Below, piece after piece: positions 4,931-51,391 of a DNA stretch of 51,514 nucleotides (position 1 is the stretch's first letter; each line of letters begins with the position of its first letter). The notes beneath the pieces are model-generated. The model was given only the letters and a program-made list of their open reading frames with translations. It searched no databases and was not told where the DNA came from. The stretch covers positions 1 to 51,514 of the IMG/VR virus record IMGVR_UViG_3300032240_002025; one strand, 5' to 3'. The position numbers and the translations under genes are program-made. The DNA is from a virus.

Positions 4931-6427
4931 TCACTTTTTTGATTTAATATATTCTATCTGTTCTTTCTGTTGCTTTAGAGCTTCAATTAAAAGAGGTACT
5001 ATTTTTGCATATTTTATACTTAAATAGTTATTTCCTGATTTGCTCTGTCCATATTTATCTGTGTCAAAAGCCGCCAATCCTATAACTTCTGGTAAAACTT
5101 TTTGAACATTCTGAGCAATTAAACCTATTTGTTTTTCACCATCATTATTATAACCCATCTTTTTAGCTAAATCGTTCTGTTCATAATATACACCATTTAA
5201 TTCATTTACTTTTTGTAATGCTTCTTGTATGTTTGTTTCAATATCTTTTAATCTCTTATCAGAATAGTAAACGGTTATATCTGATGTAGCATAAACGTAA
5301 CCGGTTGGCGCACCAGAAGTGTTAACATTTAATGCAACAACTTGTGTTACTTCACCTCCTGAAGGTCCTGTTGGTCCTGTACTACCTGGACTACCTGGAC
5401 TTCCTGTAGGACCTGTAGGTCCTGTTGCACCTGTACCTCCTGTTGGTCCTTGAGCACCAGCTGGACCTGGAGAACCTGTTGGTCCTGTAGGTCCTGTTGC
5501 ACCTGTACCGCCTGTTGGTCCTTGAGCGCCAGATGGTCCTGTAGGTCCTTGTGATCCTTGAGGACCTTGTGCACCTGAAGCCCCTTGAGGACCTTGTGCA
5601 CCTGAAGCACCAAAAGTTCCTTGTGGGCCTGTTGTACCTGGAACGCCACTAGGTCCTGTAGAACCTTGAACACCTGCGGGGCCTTGTGGTCCTTGAGCGC
5701 CAGCTGGGCCTTGAGCACCTGTTGGTCCTTGAACACCTTGAAAACCAGAAGAACCAGGAGAACCTACAGGTCCTTGAAAGCCGGCTGGACCAGCAGATCC
5801 TTGAACGCCATTTGGTCCAGGAAAACCTTGAGGTCCTTGTCTACCTTGAAAACCAGGAGAACCAGGAGAACCTACAGGTCCTTGAAATCCTTGAGGACCT
5901 GTTGGAGATGCTCCCATAAAACCTTGAGGGCCAAGAGAACCTTGTGTGCCTTGAGCGCCAGGTACACCAGATGCACCTAATGGTCCTTGAACACCAGGTG
6001 AACCTAAAGGTCCTTGAAAACCTTGTGGACCTTGAGCACCAGTAGGTCCTTGACTACCTTGAGGACCTAAATTACCTTGAACGCCTGCAACTCCTGCCGG
6101 TCCTTGAACGCCATTTGGTCCAGGAAAACCTGAAGAACCTTGAGCACCTGTTGGTCCTTGTGTGCCTTGAGCACCTGTAAAACCTATTGCGCCTTGAAAT
6201 CCTGAAAGACCAACAGTACCTTGTGCACCTTGAGGACCTTGTGTACCTACAGAACCTTGTGGTCCTTGAACACCTGATGCACCTTGTGGTCCTTGAGGAC
6301 CTTGATAACCACTATAAGATGATTGTGAGGAAACCCAAACACCGTTAGCAGCAATTACAACAGTATTGGATGTGGTATTAGCAATAGCTAATCCATTTTT
6401 AACAATAAAATTATTATTGGTGGCCAT
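4931..6427 (-). CDS. Collagen-like tail fibre/adhesin with peptidase S74 chaperone
   Basis: 498 aa. A short N-terminal head ([15 protein letters not shown]), shared with the next two genes, is followed by an essentially uninterrupted Gly-X-Y region (about 42-355). Triplets GPQ, GAQ, GVQ and GPT dominate; GFP, GSP and GVP give some Y-position prolines, and no lysine is seen in the triplets. The C-terminal 110 residues are an intramolecular chaperone of family S74: SDKRLK has the catalytic Ser389 and Lys394 five apart, as in endosialidase, followed by [10 protein letters not shown] and LPEV. The chaperone trimerises the fibre and then cleaves itself off before Ser389. It ends in a Lys-rich coiled coil. 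It overlaps the upstream paralogue by 14 bases. Confidence 0.9.
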
Positions 6428-7931
6428 TTAACTTTTCCAATTCTTCAATTTCTTTTTGTTGTTCTTTTATAGTTTCTACAATAAGTGGAATTAATCTTTC
6501 ATATTGAATAGTTAAATAATTTTCACCTGATTTACTATTACCATTTTCATCTACATCAAACGGTGCTGGTTTAATAACTTCTGGCATAATTTTTTGAACT
6601 TCTTGTGCAATTAAACCAACTTGCCTTTTATAATCATTATAACCAAATTGTTCAGCAAATTTATTTTGTGTGTAAAAAATTCCATTAAGTGTATATAATT
6701 TATCACCGGCATTTTTAATAGTTTCAATATTATCTTTAAGTCGTATGTCGGAATAATAAGCAACAATATCACCTGTTGCATGTAACCATCCTGTGGTAAC
6801 TGCGGCAGTATTTACACCTAAAGCACTAACTGATGTTGATAAACTTGAAGGAGATGTTCCTGGTGCACCTGTTGGACCTGTAGGTCCTGTTGGACCTGTA
6901 CCTCCTGGACTTCCTGTACCACCTGTTGGTCCTTGAGCACCAGATGGTCCCGTAGGTCCTTGTGGTCCTGTTGGGCCGGTTGAACCTGTACCTCCTGCTG
7001 GTCCTTGAGCACCGGAAGGACCTGGACTTCCTGTAGAACCTTGTCTGCCTGTAAACCCTGTAGGTCCTTGAGCACCGGCTGGGCCTGAAGGACCTGGACT
7101 TCCTGTACTACCTGTAGGTCCAGTTGTTCCTGTTGGACCTGTAGGTCCTGTTGGACCTTGAGCACCAGAAGGTCCTTGTCTACCAGGAGCACCTAAAGAA
7201 CCTCCAGCACCTTGAAAACCTTGAACACCTTGTGGTCCTGTAGGACCTGCGGGGCCTTGAACACCTTGTGGTCCTGCCGGACCTTGAGCACCTGAAGAAC
7301 CAGTAGGTCCTTGAAGTCCTGAAAAACCTGGAACACCGGTTGCACCTGTAGAACCTGGAGCACCTTGAGCACCTTGTACACCTTGTGCACCTTGAGGACC
7401 TGGAAAACCAGCCATACCTGTAGGTCCTTGAGCACCTTGAACGCCAGATGGACCTGAAGGTCCAGGAAAACCTGAAGAACCTTGAGCACCAGCATTACCT
7501 TGCACACCTTGTACACCTGTAGAACCTGTGGCACCTTGAGTTCCTGGAACACCTGAATTTCCTATTGTGCCTTGAGCTCCTAATGAACCCTGCGCACCTT
7601 GAGCGCCCGTTGGTCCTTGTGAACCTTGTGGACCGGTAGCACCTTGAGTGCCTTGTACACCAGATACACCTTGAGCTCCCTGATTACCGTTTGGACCTTG
7701 AGCGCCTTGAACACCAGCTACGCCTTGAAATCCTGTTGCACCTTGTGAACCTTGATAACCTTGAGGTCCTGTGGCACCTTGTACACCTTGTGTACCTTGA
7801 GGTCCTTGAGCACCTTGAATATTTGTTGTTGGTCCTGTCCAAACACCACTAGAATTAATAACAGAAGTATTAGATGATGCACTAGAAACTGTTAAACCAT
7901 TTTTAATATTAAAATTATTATTGGTAGCCAT
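6414..7931 (-). CDS. Collagen-like tail fibre/adhesin with peptidase S74 chaperone (paralogue 2)
   Basis: 505 aa, same architecture as its neighbours: [13 protein letters not shown] head, Gly-X-Y triplets from about residue 38 to 350, then an S74 domain starting SDIRLK (Ser394, Lys399) with [16 protein letters not shown] and a C-terminal coiled coil. GPT and GPS triplets cluster in the C-terminal third, a pattern like glycosylated bacterial collagens. A 53-base segment in the S74 region (6529-6581) is identical to 8040-8092 in the next paralogue, a sign of recent duplication or gene conversion. The start overlaps the upstream stop by one base (TAATG) and has GGAGG before it. Confidence 0.9.
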
Positions 7932-16191: not shown

Positions 16192-19100
16192 TTATTTTTT
16201 CTTCAATTCGTCAATCTCAACTTTGAGTTCTTTGATAGCTTCAATCAGAACACCAACAATATTACCATAAGCTACAGATAATGTTTTATCATCATCATTA
16301 TTTTCAAGTACAACCTCTGGTAATATTTTTTGAATTTCTTGAGCAATTACACCAAGACCACGTTTGCCGTCTTTATCAAAACTTACACCACGAAGAGCAG
16401 AAACTTTATCTAAAGCATTATTAATTGTTGTTACATTAGTTTTCAGTCTCATATCAGAGTAGGCAGTGATATTACCTGGTGCTGTAAAATCTCCATCTGA
16501 AGTAAAGTAGTAACTTTTTCCAGTAGCAGTCATTTGAATTGACCAACTAAGACCCGGAGTAATTGGACCTCCAGAACCAAAATAACCCGCATCTTGAAAG
16601 TTTCCACCGCTTGATTGCGTCACAAACCTTATTGCCTTGCCAATACCACCTAGTGTGGTGACACAGACAAGATTATTACCAGTACTGACATTAGTATTAT
16701 ATGTATTAGCTATAATTTGCCCTTGGCCATTATTGATAATATATGCAGATATATTTGGAGCACCTTGTGTGCCAACAGTTAAAGGACCGCTAACTACTAA
16801 ACTTGACCCACTCGATAAACCTTGTGGTCCTGTAGGACCTTGAACCCCGCTAGCACCTTGAGCACCAGTAGGACCTTGTGGTCCAGTAGCACCTTGTGTA
16901 CCATTAAATCCATTAAATCCTTGAGGACCTTGAGCACCAGTAGCACCTTGAGCACCAGTAGCACCTTGAGCACCAGTAGCACCTTGGAATCCTTGGGGAC
17001 CTTGAGCACCAGTAGCACCTTGGAATCCTTGGGGACCTTGAAAACCAGCAACACCTTGAACACCTTGGAATCCTTGGGGACCTTGAAAACCAGCAACACC
17101 TTGTACACCTTGAAATCCTTGAGGACCTTGAAAACCAGCAACACCTTGTACACCTTGAAATCCTTGAGGACCTTGAAAACCAGGAGCAGTAGGACCTGTC
17201 CAATAACCAGCAGCATTTGCAATGGTTGTACTGCCAATTTTTATACCACCATTGGCTGACAATGTTGATGTTACAAATAATGTACTTTGTACATTTGTTG
17301 TTCCTGTAATATCTCCACCAGATTTTGCGAAATGTGCAGCATCGGTGTATGATTTTAAACCAGTATTTGCTTGGTCTACATATGCCTTCATAGCAGTATT
17401 CGAAGCAACTACATATGATGTCATGCCTGTGTTTGCTTGGTCAACATAGGCTTTCATGCCTGTGTTTGCTTGGTCAACATAGGCTTTCATGGCAGTATTA
17501 GATGTAGTATCTAATGTTTGTAAAAATGTATTAGCATTTGCCAAAGCATATGATGTTGCATATGTCATTGAATTACTTGAATAAGAATTACCACTTGCAT
17601 ATTCATCAGTTACAATACGATAAACAGAACCACTAATGACGTTTGCAACGCCCCATTCTTTATTTGTTTCATTCCAACGAATTGAAGCATTAGTTCCAGG
17701 TAATCTATTTACATTAAAATATGCATAATTACCTGCTGCAATTGCTGTACCACCATATAATGTAAAGCTTGGTGCTTGATATATTGTTGGTGAAGCAATA
17801 GTGAAATTACCTTGTACGGTTAATCCACCATTACCTGCTGATTGACCAACAACCAAACTATAAATGTTTGCTGATGATGTTGAATTACCCATGAATAAAA
17901 TATTAGGTACATTCAAATTACCACCAACTCCTAAGTCAGTAGTAGTGTTTGCTGTACCAACTAACTGTGTTGCACCTGAAACATATAATTTCGAAGCTAC
18001 AACATTGGATGCCTGTACATTACTATTAACCCATACATTACCTGTAGCCACAACATTTGATGTAGTAATATTACTTGTTACAAATATGTTGGATGAAAAT
18101 ATATTACTCGAAGCCGTTATATTAGTCGATACGATATTAGCTGCATTAATATTAGTAGTTACATAAACACTACCTGTGGCTACTACGTTAGATGTAGTTA
18201 CATTATTAGTTACAAATACATTAGAACTTATAATGTTACCAGAAGCGGTAACATTGGTTGATATAATATTGGCCGCATTAATATTAGTAGTTACATAGAC
18301 ACTACCTGTGGCTACTACATTAGATGTAGTTACGTTATTAGTTACATACACACTACCTGTAGCAACCACGTTAGATGTAGTTATGTTACTTGTAACAAAA
18401 GAATTAGATGAAAATATATTACCTGAAGCAGTTACGTTTGTAGACACAACATTGGATGCATTAATATTGCTAGTTACATATACACTACCTGTAGCAACCA
18501 CGTTAGATGTTGTTACATTATTGGTTACATATACACTACCTGTAGCAACCACGTTAGATGTTGTTACATTATTGGTTACATAAACACTACCTGTGGCTAC
18601 TAAATTAGCAGTCGTTACATTATTTGTAACATTTAAATTTGCTGTGTTTATTGATGTATTAGCTTGTACAATATCTATATAAGCATTACCAGTAACAGTT
18701 AATAACCTAGTATTGGCACTTGTATTGGCTTGTAATACATCAGTCCAAGTTTTTCCAACTACATTTAAAGTTCTACCAACATATGAATCAAGTGATGTAA
18801 TACTGTTACTTGTAGTTGTATTGTAAACTACATTTAAATTGTTTCCTAAAAATGTATTACCTGTAACATTTAATCTACCAGCAAGATTAGAAGTGTTGGC
18901 AACATAAAGTCCTGTACCAGGTCCGTTGGCTTGTATAAGGCCAGAAGCAATTAAAGTTAGTTGTGTATTTTGAAGGTATACTTGTCCTGATTGTACCGTT
19001 AAATTATTTTGAATAGTTGCTGACGAACCAGTACCGGTTACTTGTAAAGAACCAGCAAAAATTGCTTGATTATTTACTTGTAGTCCTAATGAAGAATCAT

Positions 19101-19236
19101 CTAAGTATAACGTACCTGAATTTTTATGATAATTATTGGCATGAAAATCATTGTTTTCTTTTGTTAGAGCATTGGTTGTGACAATCCAATCACCAAAAGT
19201 ATTACCAGTACTTAATAAAGAATATGCGTTAGACAT
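16192..19236 (-). CDS. Long tail fibre with 17-residue repeats, collagen-like segment and S74 chaperone
   Basis: 1014 aa. Residues about 200-420 are tandem 17-residue units around VATGSVYVTNNVTTSNV (51-base DNA repeats between about 18040 and 18650), a likely beta-helical shaft. A second region holds repeated AYVDQANTGMK-type units. Residues about 700-800 are Gly-X-Y triplets with [16 protein letters not shown] repeats. The C-terminal 88 residues are an S74 chaperone: SDMRLK (Ser927, Lys932), GLGVIAQEIQKILPEV and a Lys-rich coiled coil. This mosaic of shaft types suggests assembly by module swapping. It overlaps the preceding coiled-coil gene by 8 bases. Confidence 0.87.
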   Translation of the reverse strand: MSNAYSLLSTGNTFGDWIVTTNALTKENNDFHANNYHKNSGTLYLDDSSLGLQVNNQAIFAGSLQVTGTGSSATIQNNLTVQSGQVYLQNTQLTLIASGLIQANGPGTGLYVANTSNLAGRLNVTGNTFLGNNLNVVYNTTTSNSITSLDSYVGRTLNVVGKTWTDVLQANTSANTRLLTVTGNAYIDIVQANTSINTANLNVTNNVTTANLVATGSVYVTNNVTTSNVVATGSVYVTNNVTTSNVVATGSVYVTSNINASNVVSTNVTASGNIFSSNSFVTSNITTSNVVATGSVYVTNNVTTSNVVATGSVYVTTNINAANIISTNVTASGNIISSNVFVTNNVTTSNVVATGSVYVTTNINAANIVSTNITASSNIFSSNIFVTSNITTSNVVATGNVWVNSNVQASNVVASKLYVSGATQLVGTANTTTDLGVGGNLNVPNILFMGNSTSSANIYSLVVGQSAGNGGLTVQGNFTIASPTIYQAPSFTLYGGTAIAAGNYAYFNVNRLPGTNASIRWNETNKEWGVANVISGSVYRIVTDEYASGNSYSSNSMTYATSYALANANTFLQTLDTTSNTAMKAYVDQANTGMKAYVDQANTGMTSYVVASNTAMKAYVDQANTGLKSYTDAAHFAKSGGDITGTTNVQSTLFVTSTLSANGGIKIGSTTIANAAGYWTGPTAPGFQGPQGFQGVQGVAGFQGPQGFQGVQGVAGFQGPQGFQGVQGVAGFQGPQGFQGATGAQGPQGFQGATGAQGATGAQGATGAQGPQGFNGFNGTQGATGPQGPTGAQGASGVQGPTGPQGLSSGSSLVVSGPLTVGTQGAPNISAYIINNGQGQIIANTYNTNVSTGNNLVCVTTLGGIGKAIRFVTQSSGGNFQDAGYFGSGGPITPGLSWSIQMTATGKSYYFTSDGDFTAPGNITAYSDMRLKTNVTTINNALDKVSALRGVSFDKDGKRGLGVIAQEIQKILPEVVLENNDDDKTLSVAYGNIVGVLIEAIKELKVEIDELKKK

Positions 19237-46449: not shown

Positions 46450-47325
46450 TTAATCTTCTTCAGCTAATTTAGCAAAATAGGAAATATCATCATCATCTTC
46501 AGATAAAGCAGGTTCAACAACTGGCTTCAGTTGTGCTTCTTTAAGTTGTTCTACTGTAGTCTTTGGTTTAAAAACTTCACCATTCAGACCAAGTACTTTA
46601 TCTAAACGCTGTTTCAACGCATCATAAGTTTTAAACTCACTCTCTTTAGTCATTTCTGTTAAAGAGTATTCTTTCTTCCAAATTGCTTCCATTGCATCAT
46701 CATCATTTAATAATGGAGATGCTGATTCAAATTCAGACTTATCATAATTCTGATAGCCTTCTACTTTACGAATCTTCAGCTTGAAGTTAGCACCTTTCCA
46801 TAAATCAAATGGATTAATTGCTGTTTCATCTGCAAAAGCAGGATTCATTGCTTCGGTAATCTTATCAAAGATTTTCTTACCAAATTTAAACAATTTCACT
46901 TGTCCTTCATTTTCAGGATGTTTTGGATCCGAAATGATGTATACATTGGCAATATAATTCAACTTACGCTTTTGTTTACGGACAACTTCTTTGTTTGCTT
47001 CAATGCCTGAATTCCATAATGTAGAATTATGCTCACATACTGGACATTGTTGATTCATTGTCGTTAAACAATTATCAATTAGCCAACCACCAGGACCTTG
47101 GAATCCATGTGAGAATACTTTAACCCAAGGTAAGGCATCATCACCATCAGCTTCTGCGGCAGGTAGAAAACGAATAACAGCCATGCCATTACCTGCTTTG
47201 TCTACTTCTGGACGCCAGAAATTATCTGATTTTTCTGAACCTTCTGTGGGAGTGTTTAATGCTTCGATTGCTTTGGATAGTTTATCCAGATTGCCTGATT
47301 GGCGTTTGAGATTTGCAAAACTCAT
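46450..47325 (-). CDS. 32: Single-stranded DNA-binding protein gp32
   Basis: 291 aa from the ATG at 47325 (MSFANLKRQSGNLDKLSKAI), preceded by AGGAAG; an upstream in-frame ATG at 47370 adds an unrelated 15 residues. The basic N-terminus is for cooperativity. The zinc site is H73, C86, C94, C97 (FSHGF, NCLTT, CPVC), with FWRPEVDKAGNGMAVIRFLP before it. The acidic tail SEDDDDISYFAKLAEED recruits replication partners. It coats single-stranded DNA in replication and recombination. A strong sigma-70 promoter and a leader of about 60 bases precede it, and a terminator follows. Confidence 0.93.
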   Translation of the reverse strand: MSFANLKRQSGNLDKLSKAIEALNTPTEGSEKSDNFWRPEVDKAGNGMAVIRFLPAAEADGDDALPWVKVFSHGFQGPGGWLIDNCLTTMNQQCPVCEHNSTLWNSGIEANKEVVRKQKRKLNYIANVYIISDPKHPENEGQVKLFKFGKKIFDKITEAMNPAFADETAINPFDLWKGANFKLKIRKVEGYQNYDKSEFESASPLLNDDDAMEAIWKKEYSLTEMTKESEFKTYDALKQRLDKVLGLNGEVFKPKTTVEQLKEAQLKPVVEPALSEDDDDISYFAKLAEED

Positions 47326-47392
47326 TGTACTTCCTTTCGTATTAACGGTGTATAAACGGAATATTTTCAATAACTACTCATAATCAACTGCT

Positions 47393-47422: not shown

Positions 47423-47895
47423 GTGTACATTGACATTATTATGCGTGTATGCAATAAATTTTCATAAAGTATACCAATACCACCTTCTCTCCTCCAGTCA
47501 TCAATATTCTTGCTAGTATCATCTATTAGAATAGAATCTGGAGTTGCGTAATCTTTCTTTAGGCGTGCACCAGGTACTAGGATTACAGGGAAGTCTATCT
47601 TATGTTTCTTTAACCACTCCATCTTTTGTGGTCGTATTTTATCGTCACGATTTTCACTTGAAGTGGAACTAAGAATAATAATTGGTATACCAGTACTTTT
47701 TAAATAGTCCATCAATTCTATGGCTTCTGGCATTAAATCTAATGTGGCAAAATGTCTTTCTTCAATAAATTTATCAAAGAATTGTACCCACTTTTTATCT
47801 CTTTCAGATTGCTTTGTGGTAATATTAAATAATTCAATATATCTTTTATCAAAGTCAGCAATCACACCATCCATATCAAGGTATATATTTTTCAT
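47419..47895 (-). CDS. HAD-family 5'(3')-deoxyribonucleotidase-like phosphatase
   Basis: 158 aa. The N-terminal YLDMDGVIADF (D7, D9) is the HAD nucleophile motif I, IIILSSTSS is motif II, and SILIDDTSKNIDDW with its Asp pair is motif IV. Size and motifs match the NT5C-like family of small phage and bacterial nucleotidases that dephosphorylate dNMPs. It lies between gp59 and gp32, so it may tune nucleotide pools during replication. The start overlaps the gp59 stop (ATGA). Confidence 0.8.
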   Translation of the reverse strand: MKNIYLDMDGVIADFDKRYIELFNITTKQSERDKKWVQFFDKFIEERHFATLDLMPEAIELMDYLKSTGIPIIILSSTSSENRDDKIRPQKMEWLKKHKIDFPVILVPGARLKKDYATPDSILIDDTSKNIDDWRREGGIGILYENLLHTRIIMSMYT

Positions 47896-48491
47896 CTAAA
47901 ATTTTTTACTAATATATTTTTAAAAACTTCTTTATCATATTGAACAAATGGCGTATACTTTTCAATTTGTATTTGCCATATTGGCCAAATAATATCCTCT
48001 TTAATCTTTTTTGTCCACATTGGCCAAAAATTTAACATATCATTCATAATAATAACGGTCTCTATTGATACCTTATCTCGCATCAATAATCCTAATAAAT
48101 TTGGATGTTCACCGTTATGTACTTTAATAATATCTTCTTTATCATCTTCAAAATGATCCACAAGGTATAGAATATCATTCTCAAAAATATAAGTCAAGCT
48201 CTGTTGCCGTTTTAACCATTTTTTATAGGCATCTTCACCTTCAGCATTGGTCATTTCACCAATCCACTTATCGCCTTCTAAAAAATTAGCAATATAGAAT
48301 TGTTTTAATTCATCCAAAGAATATTTACGGCTAAGTTTGTAGAATGAATACTTGTCTTTGCGAGAAGCAAATGTAGTTTTACTCACATTAGTCTTACCAT
48401 TATACTTAAAGTAATCATAAGATTTTGATGTAAAGTGCAACTTCAAAGCATTATATAAAGCAAAGGCTGCAAAACCTGTTCCCTCGTTCAC
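47892..48491 (-). CDS. 59: DNA helicase loader gp59
   Basis: 199 aa (T4: 217). LYNALKLHFTSKSYDYFKYN, SRKDKYSFYKLSRKYSLDEL and FIANF-like YIANFLEGDKWIGEMTNAEG align with T4 gp59. It binds gp32-coated fork DNA and loads the gp41 helicase. The start is GTG at 48491 overlapping the upstream stop; the first codons (MNEGTG) are identical at DNA level to the duplicated 15-base junction before the upstream oxygenase. In T4, genes 32, 59 and 33 are adjacent; here extra genes lie on both sides of 59. Confidence 0.88.
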   Translation of the reverse strand: MNEGTGFAAFALYNALKLHFTSKSYDYFKYNGKTNVSKTTFASRKDKYSFYKLSRKYSLDELKQFYIANFLEGDKWIGEMTNAEGEDAYKKWLKRQQSLTYIFENDILYLVDHFEDDKEDIIKVHNGEHPNLLGLLMRDKVSIETVIIMNDMLNFWPMWTKKIKEDIIWPIWQIQIEKYTPFVQYDKEVFKNILVKNFR

Positions 48492-49056: not shown

Positions 49057-49278
49057 TCATATTGGTAATTTGGATGTTTTCTTTAATAAATTTAAATCTT
49101 GTGCTTCTTCTCTAATCTCAGATTTCAAAGCAGAAGATATGAGAGTGGCCGCAACTTCAACTTCAAGGCCACTTTCTTTACAATGATGGCAAATAGCATC
49201 CATCAATCCAAGTTTTTTGTTTATCGATAATTCTTTAATCATCATACTAAATTCTAAAATCTCATCTTTTGTAGGCAT
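49057..49278 (-). CDS. 33: Late transcription coactivator gp33-like
   Basis: 73 aa. The pattern EILEFSMMIKELS, LMDAICHHCKESGLEVEVAA and LISSALKSEIREEAQDLNLL ending in LKKTSKLPI matches the short gp33 late-transcription coactivators of aquatic T4-like phages. gp33 links RNA polymerase to the sliding clamp and works with the late sigma factor gp55 at TATAAATA promoters, which are present here. The location close to gp59 and gp32 agrees with the T4 order. Confidence 0.75.
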   Translation of the reverse strand: MPTKDEILEFSMMIKELSINKKLGLMDAICHHCKESGLEVEVAATLISSALKSEIREEAQDLNLLKKTSKLPI

Positions 49279-49279
49279 A

Positions 49280-49801
49280 TCAATTCTTATAAAATATGTG
49301 TTGACCGATTCGTAATACCCTTTTTAGATTCCATCCAGGATTTACATAAACGGCATGGTAATACATCGCATTTGTTCTTGCTATTGTATCATGTACATAT
49401 GGTTCTGTCAATGCTTTACGAGCAACTATTTCCGATTCTTGCCATGCGTACTTGTCCCTCACTACCATATTCTTGAGGCAAGTCCATGAGAATTGGCAAA
49501 CAATAATTCTATTTGGTGTAAGTGTTCTTTGATAAACAACTTCGCAAATGGTAGAAGGAAAATTAGGATTATTGGCACGATTTAAAGTTACCTGTGCTAC
49601 GGCTAATTTACCTTCAAATGATTCTGTGGCAGCCTCAAAGTAAATATTGTTTGTGAGGCAATTTAATTGTTTGGTGAAATCGGCAGATACTTGTGTTTGT
49701 ATCTGGTCTTCCATGTAACTTTGTGCTACAGTTGGAATTGTATAGGCTAAAATGAACACTATTAGTAATGCGGCAATACTTTTTGATTTTGATGCGAACA
49801 T
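49280..49801 (-). CDS. SleB-type cell wall hydrolase (endolysin candidate)
   Basis: 173 aa from the ATG at 49801, preceded by AAGGAGATATA; a start at 49849 would add 16 residues. Residues about 9-27 are a hydrophobic segment (AALLIVFILAYTIPTVAQ) that may be a signal-anchor-release or signal peptide. The catalytic domain has NNIYFEAATESFEGKLAVAQ with E56, then VTLNRANN, and later YAWQESEIVARKAL and AMYYHAVYVNPGW, as in Hydrolase_2/SleB lytic enzymes. It should cleave peptidoglycan in the periplasm for lysis. Confidence 0.85.
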   Translation of the reverse strand: MFASKSKSIAALLIVFILAYTIPTVAQSYMEDQIQTQVSADFTKQLNCLTNNIYFEAATESFEGKLAVAQVTLNRANNPNFPSTICEVVYQRTLTPNRIIVCQFSWTCLKNMVVRDKYAWQESEIVARKALTEPYVHDTIARTNAMYYHAVYVNPGWNLKRVLRIGQHIFYKN

Positions 49802-49849
49802 TATATCTCCTTGTTGAATTGGCCGGTCGAAACCAGCCAAAGTCTCCAA

Positions 49850-50128
49850 TTACGAATGTGACTTCTTCGATTTTACTTCAGGTGTTGCTGGAGGGGTTTG
49901 AGAAACAAAACCATTGAAAGTTTCAGCTTTCTTAATGATTTCATCTTCTGCGGGAAAATGCGGTAAAACTGGATACTGTGGTGATTCTGTACCAGCAATT
50001 TTAGCTGCATCTACTTTGATATGCCAATCTTGTTGTAACGCATCACGTTGTGTGTGATAGTTATCAGTTAACATATCTTTGGCCATTTTTAAGAGTTCTA
50101 GCCGAATCTCATAGGGTGTCATAGACAT
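49850..50128 (-). CDS. Conserved small protein of unknown function
   Basis: 92 aa, start ATG at 50128 after AAGGAGAAG. MTPYEIRLELLKMAKDMLTD is a helix and FPAEDEIIKKAETFNGFVSQ a second conserved segment, with a Lys/Ser-rich tail (TPEVKSKKSHS). I recognise the general type from aquatic T4-like phages but know no function. It is the first gene downstream of the tmRNA. Confidence 0.65.
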   Translation of the reverse strand: MSMTPYEIRLELLKMAKDMLTDNYHTQRDALQQDWHIKVDAAKIAGTESPQYPVLPHFPAEDEIIKKAETFNGFVSQTPPATPEVKSKKSHS

Positions 50129-50175: not shown

Positions 50176-50207
50176 GTAAGATGATTCTGTTGCCAAGTTC
50201 ACCTTAC
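50176..50207 (-). terminator. Hairpin at the 3' end of the tmRNA coding piece, possible weak terminator
   Basis: On the minus strand GTAAGGTGA (50207-50199) pairs with TCATCTTAC (50184-50176), nine pairs including one G-U, followed by ATTTT. It may bound or stabilise the tmRNA coding piece, or partially end transcription before the 92-aa gene. Confidence 0.4.
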
Positions 50208-50487
50208 GAAACTCCTACTTACCTGAATCAGGCAGCTAGTGCATAACTTTCGTCATTTGCATTTATACTTTTTGCTTCTTCGGCCGAGTATCCTCAACCC
50301 TAACGTCTTTAGCTTTGACGATTCTCCATTGTTATACTAATCAGGCAATCGAATCCAATTCAGGCCCATCAGAAACATATTCAGCTTTCGCTTTGCTACC
50401 AGAATAATCGGTTCGGAATATGTTTTTGGTGGACCTGCCGGCATCGAAGCCGGGTCTTACCAAACTTTCAAACAACTTCTACGAATT
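50176..50487 (-). ncRNA. ssrA: Circularly permuted (two-piece) tmRNA
   Basis: Read on the minus strand. The acceptor piece comes first: H2 3' strand (about 50482-50457), T arm CCGGC-TTCGAT-GCCGG (50453-50438) and AGGTCC-A-CCA ending at 50427. A 59-base intervening segment (50426-50368) follows, closed by AAACATATTC/GAATATGTTT. The coding piece then starts GGGCCTGAATTGGATTCGA at 50367, whose first seven bases pair with CAGGTCC of the acceptor piece; the GGATTCGA is the invariant tmRNA D-region. UUGCC (50348-50344) pairs with GGUAA (50461-50457) as H2. The tag frame GCA-AAT-GAC-GAA-AGT-TAT-GCA-CTA-GCT-GCC-TGA (50260-50228) encodes ANDESYALAA. Function: rescues stalled ribosomes and tags products for ClpXP. 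The outer ends are estimated. Confidence 0.9.
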
Positions 50488-50489
50488 TT

Positions 50490-50630
50490 TTATTGTACAG
50501 AATTTGTTTTTGCTTCATCTTTCTTCTTTAGAGATTTCTTCAATATTTTCATATAGATTTTTTTCTCTAATTCTGTGTGATGATATAAACACGCCTCGTA
50601 CAATTTATGGATTAATTTTTTAAGTTTCAT
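50490..50630 (-). CDS. Possible 46-aa protein ahead of the tmRNA
   Basis: An ATG at 50630 opens 46 codons: MKLKKLIHKLYEACLYHHTE, then segments such as KKIYMKILKKSLKKKDEA, ending SVQ. The charged helical composition looks protein-like, but the likely transcription start of the sigma-70 promoter falls at or next to this ATG and there is no Shine-Dalgarno, so it may instead be untranslated 5' leader of the tmRNA precursor. Confidence 0.4.
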   Translation of the reverse strand: MKLKKLIHKLYEACLYHHTELEKKIYMKILKKSLKKKDEAKTNSVQ

Positions 50631-50636
50631 AATTCT

Positions 50637-50665
50637 ATTATATACTAATATTTATGAAAAGTCAA
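50637..50665 (-). promoter_or_regulatory. Sigma-70 promoter of the tmRNA with nested late octamer
   Basis: TTGACT (50665-50660), exactly 17-base spacer, TATAAT (50642-50637) on the minus strand, a near-perfect host promoter. CATAAATA (50656-50649), a late-type octamer, lies inside the spacer. It would transcribe the acceptor piece first and then the coding piece, and could be active both early and late. Confidence 0.8.
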
Positions 50666-50680: not shown

Positions 50681-51391
50681 TTATTGACCTAAATTGAATT
50701 TCATACCAGTTGCCTGTTCAATGGCAGTCATATTTACTTGATATTTTGGTAAATCCGCAACTGGAAGTGCAGTATTTGGCATTAAATACGCCTGTACCTT
50801 TCTACTATTCTTCTCAATAATAATCTTATATAAACGTGTTGGAATACCTAAACCGTTACCAGTTACAGGATGTCCTTGGTCGTAAATACCACCAGAGATA
50901 ATATAGAAATCTGTATTAGGTGCTGAAGCCCATTGGCGTTCCCATGTTTCTAATTGTTTCCAGATACCACGATTATTGTTAGCAACTTGTGGAACCATAT
51001 TAGATAAATTAAAACTCTCACTCATAATCTCATCACTTTGAGTATTATTACCTGCGGGCGCCATATGTCCACGGTCATGTGTTTTACCAACAGTAGCATA
51101 GTCCGCCAATGTAGCAGAACATTGTGGTGTAACAGATAAATCAGGATGAAAGTTATCTTTACGTTTTGCTGAGCCGGTCATTGCGGCTGGGGTTAGGTGC
51201 TCAAATACTGCCACAGGTGCTTTAACTGAACAACGGTGAATCACAGCATAATTCATATGACAAATTTCTTGGTCACCTGGTTGTGCCTGATATTGTGGAG
51301 TTCCATTGACCGTGAATTGTGGGCATTGTTTGTTAATCTGTGCAAATACAGATAGTGGTAATAATAATGCTAGTAGTAATAACTTTTTCAT
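50681..51391 (-). CDS. Secreted DNA/RNA non-specific endonuclease (NUC1 family)
   Basis: 236 aa. Residues 1-17 are a signal peptide (MKKLLLLALLLPLSVFA), so the enzyme goes to the periplasm. The catalytic motif DRGHMAPA (D106-A113, His109 as base) and the metal-binding NNNRGIW region (N140 with downstream E149) define the beta-beta-alpha-metal nuclease family of Serratia nuclease and EndA. Cysteines may form disulfides. Possible roles are destroying competing incoming DNA, or scavenging nucleotides. The start overlaps the upstream stop (ATGA). Confidence 0.9.
   Translation of the reverse strand: MKKLLLLALLLPLSVFAQINKQCPQFTVNGTPQYQAQPGDQEICHMNYAVIHRCSVKAPVAVFEHLTPAAMTGSAKRKDNFHPDLSVTPQCSATLADYATVGKTHDRGHMAPAGNNTQSDEIMSESFNLSNMVPQVANNNRGIWKQLETWERQWASAPNTDFYIISGGIYDQGHPVTGNGLGIPTRLYKIIIEKNSRKVQAYLMPNTALPVADLPKYQVNMTAIEQATGMKFNLGQ

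Follow-up and report, generated by a model that had tools for sequence, protein, structure and literature searches.

The end of the window analysed here, which is the whole 51,514-nucleotide (51.5-kb) stretch of IMG/VR virus record IMGVR_UViG_3300032240_002025, raises the question of whether a T4-like phage carries its own gene for tmRNA, which releases stalled ribosomes, in the rare circularly permuted, two-piece form, and if so where the gene came from and what it would do for the phage. An initial annotation, made from the DNA letters, had proposed both the gene and the T4-like character of the phage. The latter is supported by T4-type genes for gp32, gp59, a gp33-type coactivator and baseplate wedge proteins; the gp32 shares ~57% identity with its INPHARED homologues from cyanophages and marine viruses, and the nearest relatives of the window are other IMG/VR contigs, presumably freshwater phages, to judge from the metagenome sources taken overall and not record by record.

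The tmRNA identification is also correct. A covariance search matches the minus strand to Rfam model RF04321 with 92.3 bits (cut-off 47; E 1.3e-16) over model positions 1-213 of 213, the full length and not half of a structure, and together with the anatomy and covariation described below we conclude that the phage two-piece tmRNA is real and complete, and very probably functional. A reading of the gene as a standard tmRNA was considered and rejected. The beta-specific model RF01850 gives 44.1 bits, below its gathering cut-off of 84 and only slightly above the score of the alpha model (37.0 bits, itself below a cut-off of 50), and we count this against the explanation favoured below. ARAGORN, suggested alongside Infernal in the initial annotation, returned no tmRNA call on this gene, which leaves the covariance model as its only detector; the miss may be due to the six-base T loop.

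The complete gene, whose anatomy was read from the sequence, occupies 50486-50176, and all of its features lie on the minus strand. A 60-nt tRNA-like 3′ piece (50427-50486; identified by RF04321, anatomy and covariation, with predicted mature ends) comes first, followed by a 59-nt spacer (50368-50426) and a 192-nt 5′ piece (50176-50367). In the 3′ piece the H2 strand GTTTGGTAA (50457-50465) pairs with TTGCCTGAT (50348-50340) of the 5′ piece with one U-U mismatch, the T arm CCGGC-TTCGAT-GCCGG (50438-50453) has a 5-bp stem and a six-base loop, and the acceptor strand CAGGTCC (50431-50437) forms seven base pairs with GGGCCTG (50361-50367), the 5′ strand of the stem as placed by anatomy and covariation. 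The piece ends with the discriminator A and CCA, such that T arm, discriminator and encoded CCA span 50453-50427. The intervening segment, which would be removed, contains a perfect 10-bp inverted repeat, AAACATATTC/GAATATGTTT (50425-50416 and 50382-50373). Besides its acceptor and H2 strands, the 5′ piece carries a D-loop analogue in the signature GGATTCGA (50349-50356), the first two bases of which are the G18-G19 equivalents; the hairpins CGTC...GACG (50304-50320) and GGTTGAG-GATA-CTCGGCC (50282-50299), the second missing from about half of the relatives; the tag frame GCAAATGACGAAAGTTATGCACTAGCTGCCTGA (50228-50260), with resume codon GCA, tag ANDESYALAA ending in a hydrophobic C-terminal degron, and stop TGA; and a 9-bp 3′ terminal hairpin, GTAAGGTGA/TCATCTTAC (50176-50207). 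The initial annotation had described the 3′ half first, the 59-base spacer with its 10-base inverted repeat, the seven-position acceptor stem, the inter-piece H2, the signature, the encoded CCA and a 10-codon tag ending in LAA, and all of these are found on the minus strand within the interval it named.

The minimum-energy fold of the gene lies 3.3 sd below dinucleotide shuffles and includes the acceptor stem, T arm, inter-piece helices and 3′ hairpin. For covariation, 13 phage sequences were aligned without the spacer to a hand-drawn structure of 50 pairs, the relatives sharing ~61-87% identity with the window across the region of the gene. Paired cells make up 96.5% of the total, and 111 cells show double changes, where shuffles give 34.5 and partners slid by 1-3 columns give 25 at most. 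Both sides have changed at 4 of 7 pairs in the acceptor stem, 5 of 8 in H2 (98% of cells paired; 8 of 9 positions pair in the window), 3 of 6 in a further inter-piece helix, 7 of 9 in the 3′ terminal hairpin and 3 of 5 in the T stem; only 75% of T-stem cells are paired, in part because of an alignment gap, and read sequence by sequence the five pairs form in nearly all. Every cell of the CGTC...GACG hairpin is paired, with both sides changed at one pair. The double changes in inter-piece helices, stems and 3′ hairpin indicate that the two pieces evolve as a single structure, and the alanine signal G3.U70 is present in all 74 genes compared.

Because neither blastn of the tmRNA against INPHARED nor an exact DNA pattern search of IMG/VR found anything outside the window, relatives were gathered through neighbouring proteins. 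RF04321 matches occur in 49 of 100 related IMG/VR records, 21 of the 50 found via the nuclease and 28 of the 50 found via gp32; many of these records are fragments, so that absence of a tmRNA means little. All 28 matches in the gp32 group have the same strand and precede gp32 by 2.0-6.2 kb (2.86 kb in the window), and the tmRNA follows the nuclease gene by at most about 200 nt in the majority of the closest relatives. Tags of ~28 residues, compared with 10 in the window, are found in L165, L166, L168 and L178, from records of 119-344 kb (for example AKASTGEVTVSGKSVKFSARTAKASLAV and AKASTLGTVKVAMGKNFRFGSRTEAVAA), and seven copies (L170, L173, L177, L165, L178, L167 and L172) end in ACCG, ACCC or ACCT and not in ACCA; as the final A is absent from the gene, CCA addition would be needed.

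The gene order in the window, all on the minus strand where coordinates are given, is nuclease, 46-codon ORF, tmRNA, 92-aa protein, endolysin, gp33-type coactivator, hypothetical protein, gp59, deoxyribonucleotidase and gp32. The upstream neighbour is a DNA/RNA non-specific endonuclease (50681-51391; PF01223, 141 bits), which adjoins the tmRNA in close relatives; the 46-codon ORF (MKLKKLIHKLYEAC...; 50490-50630), read from the sequence between promoter and tmRNA, has no Pfam match. Downstream lie the 92-aa protein (49850-50128), which has no match in profile searches including Pfam, the cell wall hydrolase or endolysin (49280-49849; PF07486), the gp33-type late-transcription coactivator (49057-49278; PF16805), the gp59 helicase loader (47892-48491; PF08993/PF08994) and the gp32 single-strand DNA-binding protein (46450-47370; phrog_224). 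Elsewhere in the window, tail-fibre genes of collagen-like type, rich in repeat matches, occupy positions 4931-7931 and 16192-19236, and the two share similar tail-fibre C-termini.

These observations bear on whether the gene could be a neutral relic, a host ssrA picked up through recombination or imprecise excision and put to no use by the phage. In favour of this, host ssrA genes serve as integration sites and prophages contain ssrA fragments (PMC9004378). The strong covariation, the full-length gene, the fixed position in 28 of 28 gp32-group matches and membership of a phage-only clade nonetheless make a relic extremely improbable.

The tmRNAs of Bxz1-group mycobacteriophages and Bacillus phage G are one-piece and are not known to be permuted. 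They share with that of the window that they are encoded by a phage (PMC4131195). The initial annotation knew of no permuted example in a T4-like phage, a statement that the literature overturns: Melnitz, a T4-like phage of OM43, carries a two-piece SsrA, annotated as such, in the corresponding place immediately before the late-transcription coactivator gene. The same study reports many two-piece tmRNAs in marine phages, and its count of 133 unique tmRNA structures from phages includes 53 two-piece ones, 50 of them from marine or aquatic sources (PMC9004378). Another paper lists 79 phage tmRNAs and introduced RF04321 (PMC11915505). Methylophilales phage Melnitz and the pelagimyophages HTVC008M and Mosig (PMC9004378) are, like the phage of the window, T4-like with a permuted gene, and in both Melnitz and HTVC008M the tmRNA likewise lies upstream of a gp33-type coactivator, gp59 and gp32, with a nuclease gene upstream. 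Melnitz differs in its alpha-type T loop (GGCAGTA, as opposed to TTCGAT), in its longer spacer (142 nt, as opposed to 59 nt) and in its published glutamine riboswitch (PMC9004378), whereas the window has no riboswitch match. We confirmed RF04321 matches in Melnitz, HTVC008M and Pseudomonas phage SM1. Those in Pelagibacter phage HTVC008M (L288; NC_020484.1, 145161-145370; 90.6 bits), at the Melnitz locus, and in SM1 (L286; NC_041877.1, 54071-54370; 118.6 bits) are unannotated permuted tmRNAs; Pseudomonas itself has a one-piece tmRNA.

Where the gene came from was addressed with a tree of phage, betaproteobacterial and alphaproteobacterial permuted tmRNAs (65 rows, 184 columns, moderate resolution); the genome pattern scan had also picked up some six standard one-piece tmRNAs that happen to be preceded by TCCACCA, and these were excluded. 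The tree separates alpha from beta at a support of 98/95, with the window on the beta side and Melnitz on the alpha side, and places the window within a clade of 27 rows, all from phages (98/95), where L175 is the row closest to it (94% across the columns retained). Phage copies L183, L184, L187, L162, L164 and L167 are placed near bacterial beta sequences. A weakly supported position of the window near Melnitz, seen in a tree without alphaproteobacteria, was discarded, as adding them parted the two. The gene shares its piece order, the tag ANDESYALAA and the 3′ hairpin loop CTTGGCAACAGAA with the betaproteobacterial RF01850 genes of Alcaligenaceae (Advenella, Oligella, Brackiella), whereas spacers in the phage lineage are mostly 55-140 nt as compared with about 24-42 nt, and the phage T loops are varied. 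Judged by its place in the tree, the gene is of betaproteobacterial type yet long resident in phages. Direct host assignment failed, with no bacterial tmRNA close to that of the window among those collected, and a match over the cut-off was found in only 17 of 300 sampled Burkholderiales genomes. The suggestion that the permutation should trace the host lineage is thus upheld as far as the beta side of the tree, but the old phage-only clade names no host. While the category and the locus were already published, the beta-side all-phage clade, a separate and widespread branch, is new here, as are a concerted switch at two positions of the tRNA-like domain and the upstream promoter and spacer ORFs described below.

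The D-loop/T-loop contact that forms the elbow of tRNA is usually invariant. In the window the T loop is the hexaloop TTCGAT, which makes for an unusual T arm and, like the low beta score, counts against the favoured explanation. Phage T loops fall into TTCGA (18), TGCRA (19) and GGCRGTA (5) types; those of bacteria are TTCGA in beta, with a few TTCAA, and GGCRGTA in alpha. With tRNA numbering applied by analogy, the TTCGA type has U at position 55 whereas the TGCRA and GGCRGTA types have G there, and the contact co-switches in 74 of 74 genes, U55 occurring with G18 and G55 with A18. The switch accounts for nine changes on a tree built without these regions, and six of six independent supported pairs agree (sign test p 0.03); even between close relatives this difference occurs, the window having G18/U55 where L175, the complete relative nearest to it, has A18/G55. 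SmpB binding requires the D/T-loop interaction, according to Barends 2002 as cited in PMC3968760. We found no prior report of the co-switch in the literature searched, subscription papers lying outside that search.

The spacers also vary in content. An ATG with a Shine-Dalgarno-like motif opens a frame to the spacer end in five of the 36 distinct phage spacers that are 55 nt or longer, where shuffles predict 0.23, although the motif set was picked after inspection and the result is therefore a lead only. Small spacer ORFs reaching the start of the 5′ piece are seen in L164, L176, L192, L198 and Melnitz (L287), and in weaker form in L189 and L194 (for example MDDDLARFAMGMVAVIVIGAIVLF, then a stop); the 59-nt spacer of the window has no such ORF. 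A common motif, GAACC...GGTAGCAAA, surrounds a small hairpin in the spacers of the window (50368-50426), L200, L201, L205 and L209, and is kept although the spacer is expected to be discarded. A wider picture, to which we give even odds, is that an old two-piece tmRNA branch belongs to the freshwater T4-like phages, where it has a fixed locus; within this branch G18-U55 and A18-G55 toggle as a unit even between close genes, the spacer sometimes holds a small protein gene, and the locus acts as an exchange site for tmRNA types (alpha and beta) and spacer genes.

What would the phage gain from such a gene? Most relatives, the window included, encode an ordinary ANDE/ANDS...LAA tag, which favours plain ribosome rescue. 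The initial annotation had also raised redirected proteolysis, and the authors of the Melnitz study offer as an alternative that host proteins are tagged early and their amino acids recycled (PMC9004378). An early-type promoter, the ordinary LAA end of the tag and the very different long tags of related jumbo-phage copies would all be in keeping with this. However, the tag is of the standard ANDE.YALAA type and residue-identical to Alcaligenaceae tags, so that no new specificity is apparent, and tmRNA tags only the products of stalled ribosomes; we therefore regard redirected proteolysis as unlikely. SmpB was not found in 19 phage records, in a search that recovered it from bacterial controls (10 rings in 14 control genomes), and host SmpB is accordingly presumed. 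Dependence on the host's pool would suit a decoy RNA that binds SmpB of the host and thereby inhibits its trans-translation, a role proposed for the tRNA-like-domain-only RNA of mycobacteriophage DS6A (PMC4131195). The DS6A type can be set aside, as it needs the tag frame to be absent and that of the window is present; more generally, the gene keeps the tag frame, resume codon, 3′ domain and G3.U70 where a tRNA-like domain alone would suffice, and a decoy role is very improbable.

The timing of expression is suggested by a sigma-70-type promoter, TTGACT-17-TATAAT (50637-50665, minus strand), between the nuclease gene and the tmRNA, called from its 11/12 consensus match only. Of 46 phage copies, 30 have a promoter matching at least 10 of 12 positions in the 250 nt before the tmRNA, compared with ~5 expected from base-shuffled sequence, and in several copies the -10 box ends 6-15 nt ahead of the tmRNA. 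A region-wide shuffle gives similar numbers of weaker sites, and the weight therefore falls on the strength and recurrence of the promoters. Since such a promoter predicts early transcription by host RNA polymerase, the role late in infection put forward in the initial annotation is not favoured.

The explanation we prefer, with a probability of about 0.85, is that the window contains a working, phage-owned ssrA, a two-piece tmRNA of betaproteobacterial type that is expressed early and uses host RNases, AlaRS and SmpB to sustain ribosome rescue. We infer that the host sigma-70 promoter would drive the tmRNA, with the gp33-gp59-gp32 block downstream, and that host tRNA-processing enzymes would excise the 59-nt spacer, RNase P cutting before G50367 and 3′ trimming proceeding to the CCA at 50427; spacer removal by tRNA-processing enzymes is known for permuted tmRNAs (PMC11915505). 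The pieces would be held together by the acceptor stem, H2 and two further inter-piece helices, host AlaRS would charge the CCA end by way of G3.U70, and host SmpB would bind the D/T-loop elbow. The charged complex would then free ribosomes stalled on broken mRNAs and add ANDESYALAA for host proteases, the likely benefit being that rescue capacity stays high from an early stage of infection, as host DNA and mRNA are destroyed.

The early promoter makes this a testable prediction on when phages need ribosome rescue, and the phage gene set constitutes a natural experiment on tmRNA design, in which the concerted 18/55 switch offers a direct test of how far SmpB, AlaRS and the ribosome tolerate an altered elbow.
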